From positions 1-43,945 of the forward strand of contig JAJPIS010000012.1 of the NCBI GenBank assembly GCA_021324635.1: DNA of 43,945 nucleotides, read 5' to 3'. The notes beneath the pieces were generated by a model. It was not told the DNA's origin. It was given only the letters and a program-made list of their open reading frames with translations, and did no database searches. This stretch comes from Gemmatimonadota bacterium (lineage in GTDB: Bacteria > Gemmatimonadota > Gemmatimonadetes > Gemmatimonadales > Gemmatimonadaceae). Positions 6,771-43,945 of the stretch are shown here, piece by piece (within the stretch, counting starts at the first letter, position 1; each line of letters starts with the position of its first letter). The position numbers and the translations under genes are program-made.

Positions 6771-7200
6771 GTAGGGGCGGCATTCATGCCGCCCGCGATG
6801 CGCATCCCACACCGATGCCGGGCGGCATTCATGCCGCCCGCGATTCGCATCCCGCACCGATGCCGGGGCGGCGTTTCGCGCGCGATCCCGCGTCCCGCGG
6901 CCACCAACGGAACGGGGTTTATTGGATGGTGCAGGGGCAATTCGCGACGCGAATTGCCCCTGCACCGGAACCGGCGACGACCGGCGGGATGATGGTGCCG
7001 TCGTGGGCCCAGGGCGACGTGCGCGCCCCGTAGGGGCGGCATTCATGCCGCCCGCGACTCGCATCCCGCACGGATGTCTGGCCCCGCATTTCGGGCGCCC
7101 CCGTCCCTCCCATTTCGCACGAATGCCGGGGCGGCATTCATGCCGCCCGCGATTCGCATTCCGCACCGATGCCTGGCCCGGCATTTCGGGCGGCCGCCGT
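6771..7200. repeat. Cluster of four palindromic dispersed repeats in a gene-free patch
   Basis: Four exact copies of the 20-base palindrome GGGCGGCATTCATGCCGCCC lie at 6775-6794, 6820-6839, 7034-7053 and 7129-7148. The arms GGGCGGCAT/ATGCCGCCC surround a 2-base loop. At least two copies are preceded by GTAGG, and each is followed by a degenerate tail of about 30-50 bases (CGCGATTCGCATCCCGCACC, then GATGCC and a GGCATTTCGGGCG-like end), so the real unit is longer than the palindrome. The layout resembles REP/BIME or small non-autonomous elements of GC-rich genomes. No transposase of the REP-associated type is present in the window. Short open frames across this patch repeat the same peptide and are translations of the repeat, not genes. 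The stretch from about 6545 to 7275 holds no gene I can support. Confidence 0.85.
6931..6963. repeat. Perfect 16-bp-arm palindrome
   Basis: Bases 6931-6946 (GCAGGGGCAATTCGCG) are the exact reverse complement of 6948-6963, with a single A between them. The sequence is different from the neighbouring 20-base palindromes but shares the style of a GGGGC-rich outer edge and an AT-containing centre. It would form a cruciform or, in RNA, a very stable hairpin. It has no T-tract and does not follow a gene end directly, so a terminator is less likely than a second type of REP-like element. Confidence 0.85.
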
Positions 7201-38963: not shown

Positions 38964-41900
38964 ATGCGACACCGTCCGATGGTGGCTGGCGTATCGCTTG
39001 CTCTCGCTGTCGTGCTGGCGCTCGTGATCGGAAGGCACCTGCGGTCACGACCGGCGTCGCCGGGGACGACGGCCCCGCCGGCGCAGCAGACTGCCGCCGG
39101 CCCACCCGCGGCGGGACCCGCGTCGGCAGCCCCGCCGAGCCCGACACCGCGGCACCTGCTCGCCGACATCATCGAGCAGGGAGTGACGCCCGAGCGGGCC
39201 AAGCTCCTCTTCAGCATGGCGGTCGGCCCCCTGCCCGGCGTGACGGTCCCCGCGGCGCAGCGCCGTGACCCGACCGACTTCGATGGCACGCTGGCGGTCG
39301 GCTACATCACCCAGGAGTGGGATTCACTGACGCCGGAGCAGCGGCGCGCCGCCGACCGATTGATCCACCCCGCCCGCCGCAGCCCCGGCGGGCAGCGCTC
39401 CGCATCGGCCGCGCCGCGCTCGATGGTCCTGCCGGTGGCCTACGTGCCGGCGATGGAGGGTCCGGCGTACGACTACAACACCCTGGCCAGGAACGCCGAC
39501 GCCACGATCGCCGCCTTCGTCGCCCAGCAACCGGTCACCTTCACCCTGGACACCAATTACGGGCCGCCGCCAGGAAGCGAGGCCGCCCACACCTGGTCCT
39601 GGTTCATCTCGCCGCTCCATCCCGACGAGTCGTACAAGGACGTGCCCTACCCCTCCGGATGCGAGATCACGATCAACGATCAGGCGTTTCGCCCGTTCAA
39701 CGCCACCGACGCGCAGGCCATCATCACGCACGAGATGTTTCACTGCTTTCAGCAGCGCGTCGCCGGGAGCGCCTCGCGATGGTGGAGCGTGCGCGCCTGG
39801 ATCCTGGAAGGGCAGCCTTCGTGGGTCATGCAGGCGGTCGTGCCCGGCGTCTCGGGCGCCACGATGGACAGCGTGTGGCTTCCATACGTCAGGGAGCCGA
39901 CCAAGCCGTTCATCAACCGCTCGTACGACGCGGATGGCGTCTACGCCCACCTGGCCGACCTGGCCGGCGATGCCGCGGTCTGGCCCAAGCTCCTGCCGAT
40001 GTTCGGCGCCGGGATGGGCGGTATCAGCTCCCCGCAGGTCGACGTCAACGCGTTCGACTTTTTGATCGCCGGGCATGAGGTCACGTACTTCACCGACTGG
40101 GGCTCGAGCTACTTCGAGGTGAATCAGAAGACGCCGTGGGACATGCTGACGCGGATCCCGGCCGGGTCGAAGGGGCCAGAACCGCAGCCGGTGACGGTGG
40201 ACAACACGACAACCGAAATGCTCCCGGCGGCCGGGCAGTTCCAGGGCGAGTTGTTCCATCTCGACGGATCGGCCGATATCGTCATCGTGTCGCTGCTGAC
40301 CGGATACGGCCGCCTGCACGACGAGGGCTTCAAGATCGACGAGGCGCTCGACGTGGGTGGCCCGCTCGCGCTGTGCCTCAGGCAGGGCGGCTGCAAGTGT
40401 CCCGACGGGTCGGCGGGCGCCTCGCTGTTCACCAAACCGGCGACCCGGCCCATCGCCATCGGCATCAACGGCGGCGACCACACGACGCAGGTGGGCGTGG
40501 CGGGAGAATCCCTCGACAAGTTCTGCAAGCAGCCGGACCCGCCGGCGCCCCCGAATGCGTCTGCCGGGGGCGGTGGAGAGCGGGGTGGACCCCCGATCTC
40601 CGGGGACTCGTTGCCCTCGCCACCCGAGGGAGCATCACGCGGCGATCCCCACGTCGTGACCATCGACGGCCTCAACTACGATCTCCAGACCGTCGGCGAG
40701 TACACCCTGGTGAAATCGACGAAGGACGATTTCGTGGTCCAGGTGCGCATGGTGCCCGTCCGCGGCTCCGACGCGGTCAGCATGAACCAGGCGATCGCCA
40801 CCACGCTCGATGGTCATCGGGTGACGGTGGCGATCGAGAATGCCACCGAGGTCCTGCGGGTGGACGGCAAGGAAGTGTTGGGCGAGCCCCCTGCGCCGCT
40901 CCGTGGGGCGGTGCTCTGCACGGAGACCATGTACGGCCCGAGCTGCCAGCTCAACTGGCCCGACGGGACGATCGTGCGCGCGACGCAGATCGAGCGGTTC
41001 GCGCTCAATGTCGACGTGCGGCCGGCGCGCGCGCGCCTCGGCACGCTCGCCGGCCTCCTGGGCGATGGCGATGGCTCGACAGCCAATGACCTGGTGGGCC
41101 TGGGCGGTGCGTCGCTCGGCACGTCACCAAGCCCACAGGCCATCAATCGCTCGCTGGCCGACAGGTGGCGCGTCCGGTCCGGCGCGTCGCTCTTCGACTA
41201 CCTCCCGGGCCAGTCCAGCCGGACCTTCGCGGACACGACGTTCCCCCGCAGCGATGCCGGCCGGCTCGCCAACCGCGATTCCGCCGAGCGGGTGTGCCGG
41301 CAGGAAGGGATCACCGACGTGGCCTTGCTCGACGACTGCGTCACGGATCTCGCCGCGACGAACAACGTCGCCTACGCCAGCGTGTACAGTCACACCCAGC
41401 GCGTCGCCGATGCGCGCGCGGCGCTCCGGCAGACCGCGATGCGCGGCGTGGTGCGCACCCTGTACATGGACGGTACCATCACCGACACGTCCCGGCCGCC
41501 GGTGTTCACGTTCGCGGCCAAGGACTCGGACGTCATCTGGATCGACTCGACCGGCTGCAAGGACGGCAACGGGACGATTGTCCTGCATCCGCTGTGGCAC
41601 CTCCCCGGCGATGCGAGCAGCACGTGGGATCTTCAGCAGAACGCGCTGCCGCTTTTCGAGCCCGGACTCGGTGACCCGACGCGAGTCTCCGCCTGTCGCG
41701 CGGGCCGGCTCAAGCTCATGGCTGGCACGATCGCCTTGTTGGCCACTCCGCTCAAAGGCGCGGGCGGCGGATATCACATCCCGATCCGCTTCATCCGCCA
41801 CGACCACATCCGCGCCATCACCTACGGCACCACGGTCGACGGCGAGATCGAGAATCCGGCCGCGCGCGACGTCTACACGTTCATCGGGCACCCTGGGGAC

Positions 41901-42134
41901 ATCATTCGGATCTCGGGGGACGGCTGTGACCTGGGCCACATGATCACCGGGGTGGTGCTCCCGGGCCAATACGCGCAGCAGGGGCCCGTGTGCAGCGGCG
42001 GGGATTTCACAGTGCCGCCGAGATCCGCGGCCGGCTCGATGGACTCGACCACACAGTTCATCATCAATTTCGGGAACAACGCCGGCCGGGCGAAATACCA
42101 CTTCGTCTTCCGCGGAGCGCCGGCGAAGAACTAG
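38964..42134 (+). CDS. Exported protein with gluzincin-like HExxH motif and von Willebrand type D domain
   Basis: A 1056-residue exported protein. A hydrophobic segment (VAGVSLALAVVLALVIG, about 7-23) is followed by a Pro/Ala-rich spacer. Residues about 80-420 contain HEMFHCFQ (His256, Glu257, His260) and, 22 residues after the second histidine, an EGQPSWV glutamate (Glu282), the spacing of gluzincin-type zinc proteases. From RGDPHVVTIDGLNYDLQ (GDPH at 560-563) to LAGLLGDGDGSTANDLVG is a von Willebrand type D domain, and SLFDYLPG ... CRQEGI ... LLDDCV is the C8-like segment that usually follows. The C-terminal 250 residues look like all-beta, possibly PPC-like, units (EIENPAARDVYTFIGHPGDII). 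ATG 38964 has GGGAGG five bases upstream. A protease that acts outside the cell is plausible, unproven. Confidence 0.8.
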   Translation: MRHRPMVAGVSLALAVVLALVIGRHLRSRPASPGTTAPPAQQTAAGPPAAGPASAAPPSPTPRHLLADIIEQGVTPERAKLLFSMAVGPLPGVTVPAAQRRDPTDFDGTLAVGYITQEWDSLTPEQRRAADRLIHPARRSPGGQRSASAAPRSMVLPVAYVPAMEGPAYDYNTLARNADATIAAFVAQQPVTFTLDTNYGPPPGSEAAHTWSWFISPLHPDESYKDVPYPSGCEITINDQAFRPFNATDAQAIITHEMFHCFQQRVAGSASRWWSVRAWILEGQPSWVMQAVVPGVSGATMDSVWLPYVREPTKPFINRSYDADGVYAHLADLAGDAAVWPKLLPMFGAGMGGISSPQVDVNAFDFLIAGHEVTYFTDWGSSYFEVNQKTPWDMLTRIPAGSKGPEPQPVTVDNTTTEMLPAAGQFQGELFHLDGSADIVIVSLLTGYGRLHDEGFKIDEALDVGGPLALCLRQGGCKCPDGSAGASLFTKPATRPIAIGINGGDHTTQVGVAGESLDKFCKQPDPPAPPNASAGGGGERGGPPISGDSLPSPPEGASRGDPHVVTIDGLNYDLQTVGEYTLVKSTKDDFVVQVRMVPVRGSDAVSMNQAIATTLDGHRVTVAIENATEVLRVDGKEVLGEPPAPLRGAVLCTETMYGPSCQLNWPDGTIVRATQIERFALNVDVRPARARLGTLAGLLGDGDGSTANDLVGLGGASLGTSPSPQAINRSLADRWRVRSGASLFDYLPGQSSRTFADTTFPRSDAGRLANRDSAERVCRQEGITDVALLDDCVTDLAATNNVAYASVYSHTQRVADARAALRQTAMRGVVRTLYMDGTITDTSRPPVFTFAAKDSDVIWIDSTGCKDGNGTIVLHPLWHLPGDASSTWDLQQNALPLFEPGLGDPTRVSACRAGRLKLMAGTIALLATPLKGAGGGYHIPIRFIRHDHIRAITYGTTVDGEIENPAARDVYTFIGHPGDIIRISGDGCDLGHMITGVVLPGQYAQQGPVCSGGDFTVPPRSAAGSMDSTTQFIINFGNNAGRAKYHFVFRGAPAKN

Positions 42135-42222: not shown

Positions 42223-42295
<73 letters not shown>

Positions 42296-42560: not shown

Positions 42561-42562
42561 TG

Positions 42563-42596
42563 TTGAAATATCTGCCATGGTTGACAGATATTTCAA
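42563..42596. promoter_or_regulatory. Perfect inverted repeat over the -35 box of the AbiEi-like gene (candidate operator)
   Basis: TTGAAATATCTG (42563-42574) is the exact reverse complement of CAGATATTTCAA (42585-42596), with a 10-base spacer that contains CCATGG. It overlaps the TTGACA -35 box (42581-42586) and part of the spacer. Binding of a dimer here would block RNA polymerase. AbiEi proteins are known to repress their own promoter by binding inverted repeats, so autoregulation is the simplest reading. Confidence 0.75.
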
Positions 42597-42609
42597 CCGC
42601 CCATATCAT
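42581..42609 (+). promoter_or_regulatory. Near-consensus sigma70 promoter, leaderless start
   Basis: TTGACA (42581-42586) is a perfect -35 box. After exactly 17 bases comes TATCAT (42604-42609), a good -10 box. Transcription should start about seven bases later, at 42616 or 42617, which is the first base of the GTG start codon at 42617. The transcript would therefore have no leader, or only a few bases. Confidence 0.75.
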
Positions 42610-42616
42610 TGCAACA

Positions 42617-43732
42617 GTGCGCGAGATTGATGCCCACGTTCGCCATGGTATCACTCGTCTCCTCGCCGAGTACACGGGAGAGGAGGCTCGTCTCGTCGCG
42701 CCGGAGGCGTGGGGACGTCAACTCGGCACGCAGCAGCGCCAACTCAGCCCAGACCTGGTTGTAGACGCAGCCGGAATCCGCTTCGTGGTCGAAACTAAGG
42801 CGAGTGGCGCCGCAGCGCCGGTCGCAGCTGGCCTCAGGGTACTCAAGGCCTACCGCAGCGCATTCGAGGCACCTGACCGCAGAGCGCGCCGCAGCGTGCC
42901 GCTCCTCGTGGTCCCATTCATGGGTGAGGTAGGCCGGGAACTGTGCACCGAGGCTGGCATATCGTGGCTCGACCTGGCCGGCAACGCACGCATTGCCGCG
43001 CCAGGACTCCGCGTCCGGGTCGAGGGGCGACCGAATGTCGACGCGCGGCGGACGTCGCTGGTGAACCCTTTCGCGCCGCGTGCCGCGCGCGTGCCACGCC
43101 GCCTGCTCCTCGCGCCCGAGCGGGCATGGACGCAGCATGCGCTCGCCAAGGAGACAGGGCTCGACAAGGGCTTCGTAAGCAAGGTGGTCGGTGCCCTCGT
43201 GAGCCAAGAGCTCCTCGCCCTGGAGCGCGAGAAGGCCGGTGTAGGGGCGCCGCGCACCCTCCGCGTCGTCGATCCGGACGCGCTGCTCGATGCGTGGCGC
43301 GAGGTATACGCCTTCGACAAGCACGACGTCCACCGCGGCTTGGTCGCGGCGCGGTCGGGGCCAGAGCTCCTCGAACGCCTGGCGGCGCGCTTCGGGGAGT
43401 CCGACAGGCCGGCTGGGCGCTACGCGGCAACGGGTCTGGCTGCAGCCTCGCGGCTCGCTCCCTACGCTGACTTCAGGACGGTGACGTTCTACTGCGAGGA
43501 GCTGCCGAGCGCCAGTGTTCTCGCCGATCTCGGCTTTCAGGACGGGGTGCGCGGCGGCAATGTGTGGCTCGCCGTGCCCAGCGACATGGGCGTCTTCGAT
43601 GGCACCGCGACTGCCGGCGGTGTCCCATGCGTGAGCGCCATCCAAACGTACTTGGACCTGTTCGCGCATCCCGAACGTGCGCGGGATGCCGCGGTCGAGG
43701 TCCGCGCCCAGTGCCTGTCTTGGCGTCACTGA
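42617..43732 (+). CDS. AbiEi-like protein (type IV toxin-antitoxin regulator family), 371 aa
   Basis: A 371-residue protein of mixed architecture. Residues 1-100 include SPDLVVDAAGIRFVVETKASG, a D...ExK pattern of PD-(D/E)xK nuclease-like folds. A winged-helix motif follows at about 165-215 (AWTQHALAKETGLDKGFVSKVVGAL, split by the turn). The C-terminal part (DPDALLDAWREVYAFDKHDVHRGLV, LERLAARF, AIQTYLDLFAHPERARDAA) resembles the AbiEi_2-type antitoxin/regulator domain of type IV systems. I chose GTG 42617 because the promoter starts transcription at this base; the open frame continues to TTG 42560 but that part overlaps the operator. Codon use is less GC-extreme than in the genes before the tRNA. 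A partner nucleotidyltransferase toxin (AbiEii) would be expected downstream; only 213 bases remain and show none. Confidence 0.65.
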   Translation: MREIDAHVRHGITRLLAEYTGEEARLVAPEAWGRQLGTQQRQLSPDLVVDAAGIRFVVETKASGAAAPVAAGLRVLKAYRSAFEAPDRRARRSVPLLVVPFMGEVGRELCTEAGISWLDLAGNARIAAPGLRVRVEGRPNVDARRTSLVNPFAPRAARVPRRLLLAPERAWTQHALAKETGLDKGFVSKVVGALVSQELLALEREKAGVGAPRTLRVVDPDALLDAWREVYAFDKHDVHRGLVAARSGPELLERLAARFGESDRPAGRYAATGLAAASRLAPYADFRTVTFYCEELPSASVLADLGFQDGVRGGNVWLAVPSDMGVFDGTATAGGVPCVSAIQTYLDLFAHPERARDAAVEVRAQCLSWRH

Positions 43733-43945
43733 GGAGGTCGCGGACGAACCGCTGCATCAGACCGGAGCGCGTCGCCACACACCAGGCCGAGAAGCTCCCA
43801 GGACGACGCGTTCCCTCAAAGGCCTCGATAGCATGACAGCGGTGGGCAGGATCCCCTACGGCGCGGCGAAGCGTGGCTCACCGATCGAAGCGGGCCGAGG
43901 TGTCTCGGCGCGGGCCGGTCCTGGTGTTCTTGCCGGAAGGGCAAA
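43733..43945. other. End of window: short open frame, no gene recognised
   Basis: A plus-strand frame opens at ATG 43834 and runs to the end (MTAVGRIPYGAAKRGSP...), 37 residues with no match I recognise and no ribosome site. Minus-strand frames have stops. It could be the start of a gene that continues outside, or nothing. Confidence 0.25.

Follow-up and report, generated by a model that had tools for sequence, protein, structure and literature searches.

A probably leaderless AbiEi_2-family gene with a putative operator over its -35 box, beside tRNA-Phe in a Gemmatimonadota bacterium

The tRNA-Phe locus

The window analysed here is a whole contig of a Gemmatimonadota assembly (G000:C120:1-43945; 43,945 nt) that ends 213 nt past a gene of the AbiEi_2 family, and this gene begins 321 nt after a tRNA-Phe gene (Table 1). 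Just upstream of the tRNA gene, the window (38964-42134) encodes a 1056-aa protein that contains a von Willebrand type D domain, and a paralogue of the 3' part of that gene is found on contig C106 (72% DNA identity). The tRNA-Phe site is likely an integration hotspot because two other genomes carry an AbiEi_2 homologue or an AbiE operon at tRNA-Phe: in G210 the homologue likewise follows the tRNA gene, and in G002, a member of the same genus (locus L144, G002:C5:353800-366000), an IS3-like transposase comes next after tRNA-Phe, and then a partial tRNA-Phe copy and an AbiEii/AbiEi pair. The assembly was searched for a direct repeat of the 3' end of the window's tRNA-Phe, and none turned up elsewhere. 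At a further locus (L145, G001:C82), the intact tRNA-Phe has several partial copies of its 3' end downstream, suggesting tandem integrations.

Table 1. Features of the AbiEi_2 locus in window coordinates
Feature	Position	Strand	Basis
tRNA-Phe (GAA), likely integration hotspot beside the gene	42223..42295	+	tRNA scan, Rfam, homologous loci
Inverted repeat GTTGAAATATCTG-N10-CAGATATTTCAAC, putative AbiEi operator	42562..42597	no strand	repeat search, shuffles, genome search, relatives
-35 hexamer TTGACA	42581..42586	+	sequence and promoter scan
-10 hexamer TATCAT	42604..42609	+	sequence and promoter scan
Predicted transcription start, leader of 0-1 nt	42616..42617	+	inferred from the -10 ending 7 nt before GTG; in homologues mostly 6 nt before ATG
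AbiEi_2-family protein, 371 aa, GTG start	42617..43732	+	Pfam, homologue alignment, structure model
N-terminal PD-(D/E)XK-like domain, residues 1-138 (D46, E59, K61)	42617..43030	+	model, fold match, alignment
Winged-helix domain, residues 145-223	43049..43285	+	Pfam, model, fold match
AbiEi_2 C-terminal domain, nucleotidyltransferase-like fold, no obvious DxD, residues 245-371	43349..43729	+	Pfam, fold match, alignment
Contig remainder, 213 nt, no AbiEii/nucleotidyltransferase start found	43733..43945	no strand	partner scans

The AbiEi_2 protein and its domains

The AbiEi-like identity proposed in the first-pass annotation agrees with a Pfam match above the cutoff to AbiEi_2 (PF09952, which we take to be linked to COG4861; 28.9 bits against a cutoff of 21, E 1.7e-6, residues 235-386 of the longer frame). 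A MarR_2 match in Pfam stays below the cutoff, PADLOC gives a weak match only, NCBIfam gives no match and a PDB profile search returned no significant relative. A structure model built from a 45-row alignment (mean pLDDT 88.6, pTM 0.66) predicts three domains. In VIA-align, residues 4-122 superpose on NucS, in its nuclease domain (2vld; Z 8.3, 102 residues aligned), and residues 5-127 on XisH (2okf; Z 8.1), both at the edge of the noise range of the aligner, and the profile match to NucS has an E of 0.28. The middle domain resembles MarR-type winged helices (Z up to 8.0), and residues 246-370 resemble MenT1 (8rr5; Z 9.8) and ANT(2'') (Z 8.2). Since these Z values barely exceed the noise of the tool and Foldseek alone gives no E below 0.001, the folds are regarded as probable, not proven.

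The D...ExK pattern seen earlier in the N-terminal region is present as D46, E59 and K61, and the model places this domain in the restriction-endonuclease-like fold. The glutamate is kept in 34 of 45 homologues and the lysine in 36 of 45 (the aspartate column is not reliably alignable), so a nuclease active site seems dispensable. In the C-terminal domain, the DxD of the GS/GG...DxD motif is absent from residues 262-300 of the window protein and from most aligned homologues; thus, if this domain has a nucleotidyltransferase fold, it looks inactive. It is extremely unlikely that the protein is chiefly a nuclease and the inverted repeat its target rather than an operator: the NucS and XisH matches and the presence of the three residues would suit such an enzyme, but its glutamate and lysine vary among homologues as described, and the palindrome tracks the promoter and not the domain.

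Promoter, inverted repeat and start codon

The promoter described in the first-pass annotation (TTGACA, a 17-nt spacer and TATCAT) is found as given. It matches the consensus at 11 of 12 positions, where shuffles lead one to expect 0.2 promoter-like sites per region. The palindrome over the -35 box is also present and perfect, with arms one base longer on each side than the 12 bases first claimed: the 13-bp arms (42562-42574 and 42585-42597) are separated by 10 nt, and they reach 16 nt when one mismatch is allowed. Dinucleotide shuffling of the 300-nt region, repeated 200 times, gave perfect arms of at most 9 bp. The repeat spans the -35 box and leaves the -10 box free, and its centre falls 1.5 nt upstream of where TTGACA begins. 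Two other roles for the palindrome were rejected. As the repeat is a single copy in the 4.09-Mb genome, it is not a dispersed repeat, and the real dispersed palindrome of this genome differs in sequence; it is not a terminator either, since the region has no terminator-like site. Above its threshold, Rfam reports the tRNA alone and no other known RNA element.

Given the 17-nt spacer and a -10 box that ends 7 nt before GTG 42617, a normal distance from -10 to +1 predicts a transcription start at 42616 or 42617, that is, a leader of 0-1 bases. A search for a Shine-Dalgarno-like sequence upstream of this GTG found none, and the leaderless start first proposed for the gene is thereby supported, as a prediction from spacing and sequence. 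The open frame itself begins at TTG 42560; the alternative upstream start codons are TTGs only (42560, 42563 and 42581, all within the palindrome or at its edge), and downstream of GTG 42617 no in-frame start precedes the ExK motif, save a GTG codon directly before it. The closest homologue (L026, the same as record L054, from a Gemmatimonadetes MAG) has an ATG that coincides with GTG 42617 in the alignment, both being residue 1. No conserved N-terminus running through the palindrome was found, and homologue N-termini fit this GTG as the start. The in-frame TTGs would also allow a leadered message, begun upstream (for instance by read-through from tRNA-Phe) and translated from a TTG in or just before the palindrome, which would then be coding or act post-transcriptionally. 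We regard this as very improbable, because of the alignment of homologue N-termini at the GTG, the same promoter geometry around homologue palindromes and the lack of a terminator-like structure in the region.

A rule for leaderless-type promoters was applied to a sample of about 219 kb of the same genome, which holds 128 gene-like ORFs. Only 2 passed, one being the AbiEi_2 gene of the window and the other an AbiEii gene on contig C87; as the gene calling was crude, this result is suggestive only.

Upstream geometry across relatives

Homologues are found in the same order and phylum and widely in Proteobacteria, Acidobacteria, Verrucomicrobia and others. Homologues on plasmids are annotated as AbiEi, several of them with AbiEii; a single-protein scan of genome_contigs and a scan of viral_contigs returned no relatives. 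The comparison of palindrome and spacing in relatives suggested by the first-pass annotation was made on 76 non-redundant homologue loci, the window included, and the geometry recurs. A strict leaderless-type promoter is present at 16 of the 76 loci, against 2.3 +/- 1.4 in shuffles (maximum 6 in 100 runs), and the other 60 fall outside this rule, in part through the exclusion of -10 boxes of the CATTTT type and of uncertain start choices. Exactly 6 nt separate the -10 box from the start in 12 of these 16 loci. Additionally, 10 of the 16 carry an inverted repeat, its arms 6 bp or longer, that is concentric with the 5' end of the -35 box (shuffles 1.6 +/- 1.0, maximum 4). Since both counts exceed those of shuffles, leaderlessness, as predicted from these upstream regions, and the -35 palindrome are family traits of AbiEi_2. 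The combination was first described as unusual, a view that is not supported, since homologues of several phyla have the leaderless-type spacing, the repeat concentric with -35 and the ExK domain. The promoter design seems undescribed for this branch, and what is odd about the window copy is that no toxin is visible beside it.

Many relatives share the pattern TGAAA - N - TTGACA - N1-2 - TTTCA - N - TATTTT - 6 nt - ATG, and the half-site TGAAA...TTTCA occurs in the window's repeat too. Among the concentric repeats, that of the window ties with L090 as the longest. Its centre, at -1.5 relative to the -35 edge, almost agrees with that in relatives (0 to +2 nt), and its half-sites, as read from the sequences, are more widely spaced, 27 bp apart from centre to centre, compared with 18 bp in L063 and L090. 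In the closest homologue (41-43% identity) the operator differs in sequence and a leaderless promoter is not clearly recognisable; read from its sequence, the upstream region contains nested concentric repeats, GTTTCCTAAA...TTTAGGAAAC around GTTTCT...AGAAAC. In many relatives the ATG lies within a second palindrome, TTTTCAGCAAATGCTGAAAA. Paired AbiEi_2 genes are seen at L063 (Paraburkholderia phenazinium), L061, L110 and others, with the start codon in a palindrome of this type, so that the operator and the first codons overlap.

The toxin partner

A nucleotidyltransferase-like gene is located at the stop codon in at least 86 of 121 homologue loci. This count was obtained with a broader motif, since the first one missed most partners of the GGAVPWLL type, and it is a lower bound because the broader motif still misses some (e.g., L004, L005, L012 and L014). 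Of eight partners tested, six match AbiEii or NTP_transf_8, weakly to clearly. Partner starts overlap or adjoin the antitoxin stop, typically at -13, -19 or -4 nt. In the window, no adjacent AbiEii nucleotidyltransferase gene is found in the 213 nt between the stop and the contig end, and the sole open frame downstream (89 aa) matches no family. The earlier statement that the window holds no toxin is thus true but says little, the window being the entire contig. A toxin on another contig was also considered and rejected: the AbiEii of C87 belongs to its own operon with AbiEi_4. That operon (L154:64-1580, G000:C87) is toxin-first, and an imperfect 21-bp palindrome adjoins the predicted leaderless ATG of its AbiEii.

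An improbable explanation is that a complete AbiE operon was cut by the assembly and that the toxin lies just past the contig end. The position of the gene at the end of the contig and the presence of a partner at most homologues would agree with this, but with the overlapping or adjoining starts seen in homologues the first residues of the toxin should be visible, and the one short frame downstream resembles no family. Because no toxin is found in the available downstream DNA and the closest homologue is also without a partner, the window copy is most likely solitary, an orphan antitoxin or regulator; other copies without a detected partner exist (e.g., L009, L019, L025 and L039). Somewhat unlikely is a decayed remnant, an orphan antitoxin that has lost its toxin and whose promoter and operator persist without present function. 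The missing partner, the solitary closest homologue and the mobile tRNA-Phe site next to the gene are consistent with decay; on the other hand, the 371-aa frame, its three predicted domains and the family-invariant residues are intact, as are the perfect palindrome and the near-consensus promoter.

Comparison with known systems

AbiEi of Streptococcus agalactiae (type IV AbiE; PMC3985639) is a winged-helix repressor of the AbiEi family that exerts negative autoregulation by binding its own promoter at inverted repeats, which extend over -35, -10 and +1. It differs from the window protein in being of the COG5340 type with an N-terminal winged helix, in its ribosome-binding site, in its two 23-bp repeats with a 3-bp gap and in its adjacent toxin (PMC3985639). 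Rv2827c of Mycobacterium tuberculosis (PMC7319586) is a similar AbiEi-like repressor that acts on several inverted repeats immediately upstream of the start codon; its COG5340 fold, four 23-bp sites and adjacent toxin set it apart, and a leaderless start is not stated in the text consulted. The same source assigns Rv0837c to COG4861. The COG4861-COG4849 antitoxin/toxin pairs mentioned in PMC3985639 probably have the same type of antitoxin, with AbiEi_2 followed by a nucleotidyltransferase, unlike the window copy, which is without a partner in the available DNA. Restriction-modification C proteins (PMC4824078) offer another parallel, since their controller genes are autoregulated, have operators at the promoter and give leaderless messages, although they belong to an unrelated protein family and are also activators. 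Operators of the AbiEi_2/COG4861 branch appear to be uncharacterised; the accessible portions of the literature mentioning COG4861 describe none for it.

Proposed mechanism and significance

We consider it likely that the gene encodes an AbiE-type antitoxin or repressor, probably leaderless from a promoter at its GTG, autorepressed through the putative operator and most likely solitary. The strong promoter would start RNA at the GTG or one base before it, and the message would be translated leaderless. The winged helix would then probably bind the repeat as two half-sites, and its occupancy would block the sigma factor from the -35 box, keeping the protein at a low steady level. We infer the autorepression from the anatomy of the locus and from published work on AbiEi and Rv2827c (PMC3985639; PMC7319586).

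A stronger version of this proposal, in which leaderless translation is itself a selected regulatory feature of AbiEi_2 antitoxins, is unlikely. Operator, promoter and start codon would here be fused, the ATG lying inside TTTTCAGCAAATGCTGAAAA in many relatives, so that one binding event would control the entry of RNA polymerase at the start codon; leaderless antitoxin messages may go on being translated under stress while leadered mRNAs are not, which would favour antitoxin over toxin. Joined to its winged helix, the antitoxin would carry a PD-(D/E)XK-like domain and a copy of the toxin's nucleotidyltransferase fold that has no activity. For the likely reading, that of an autorepressed AbiE-type regulator, the recurrent geometry (a repeat centred on -35, and a -10 box six bases before the ATG) provides a concrete operator model that can be tested in a widespread toxin-antitoxin family. 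Additionally, a leaderless message does not depend on a ribosome-binding site matched to the host, which suggests a simple explanation of how AbiEi_2 genes could function after transfer.

Dispersed palindromes of the genome

A near-perfect palindrome of 39 nt, GGTGCAGGGGCAATTCGCGACGCGAATTGCCCCTGCACC, lies at 6925-6970 of the window and recurs at 25 other genomic sites. Its 33-nt core is present in 26 REP-like copies across the genome, several of them no more than 260 bases from a contig start.
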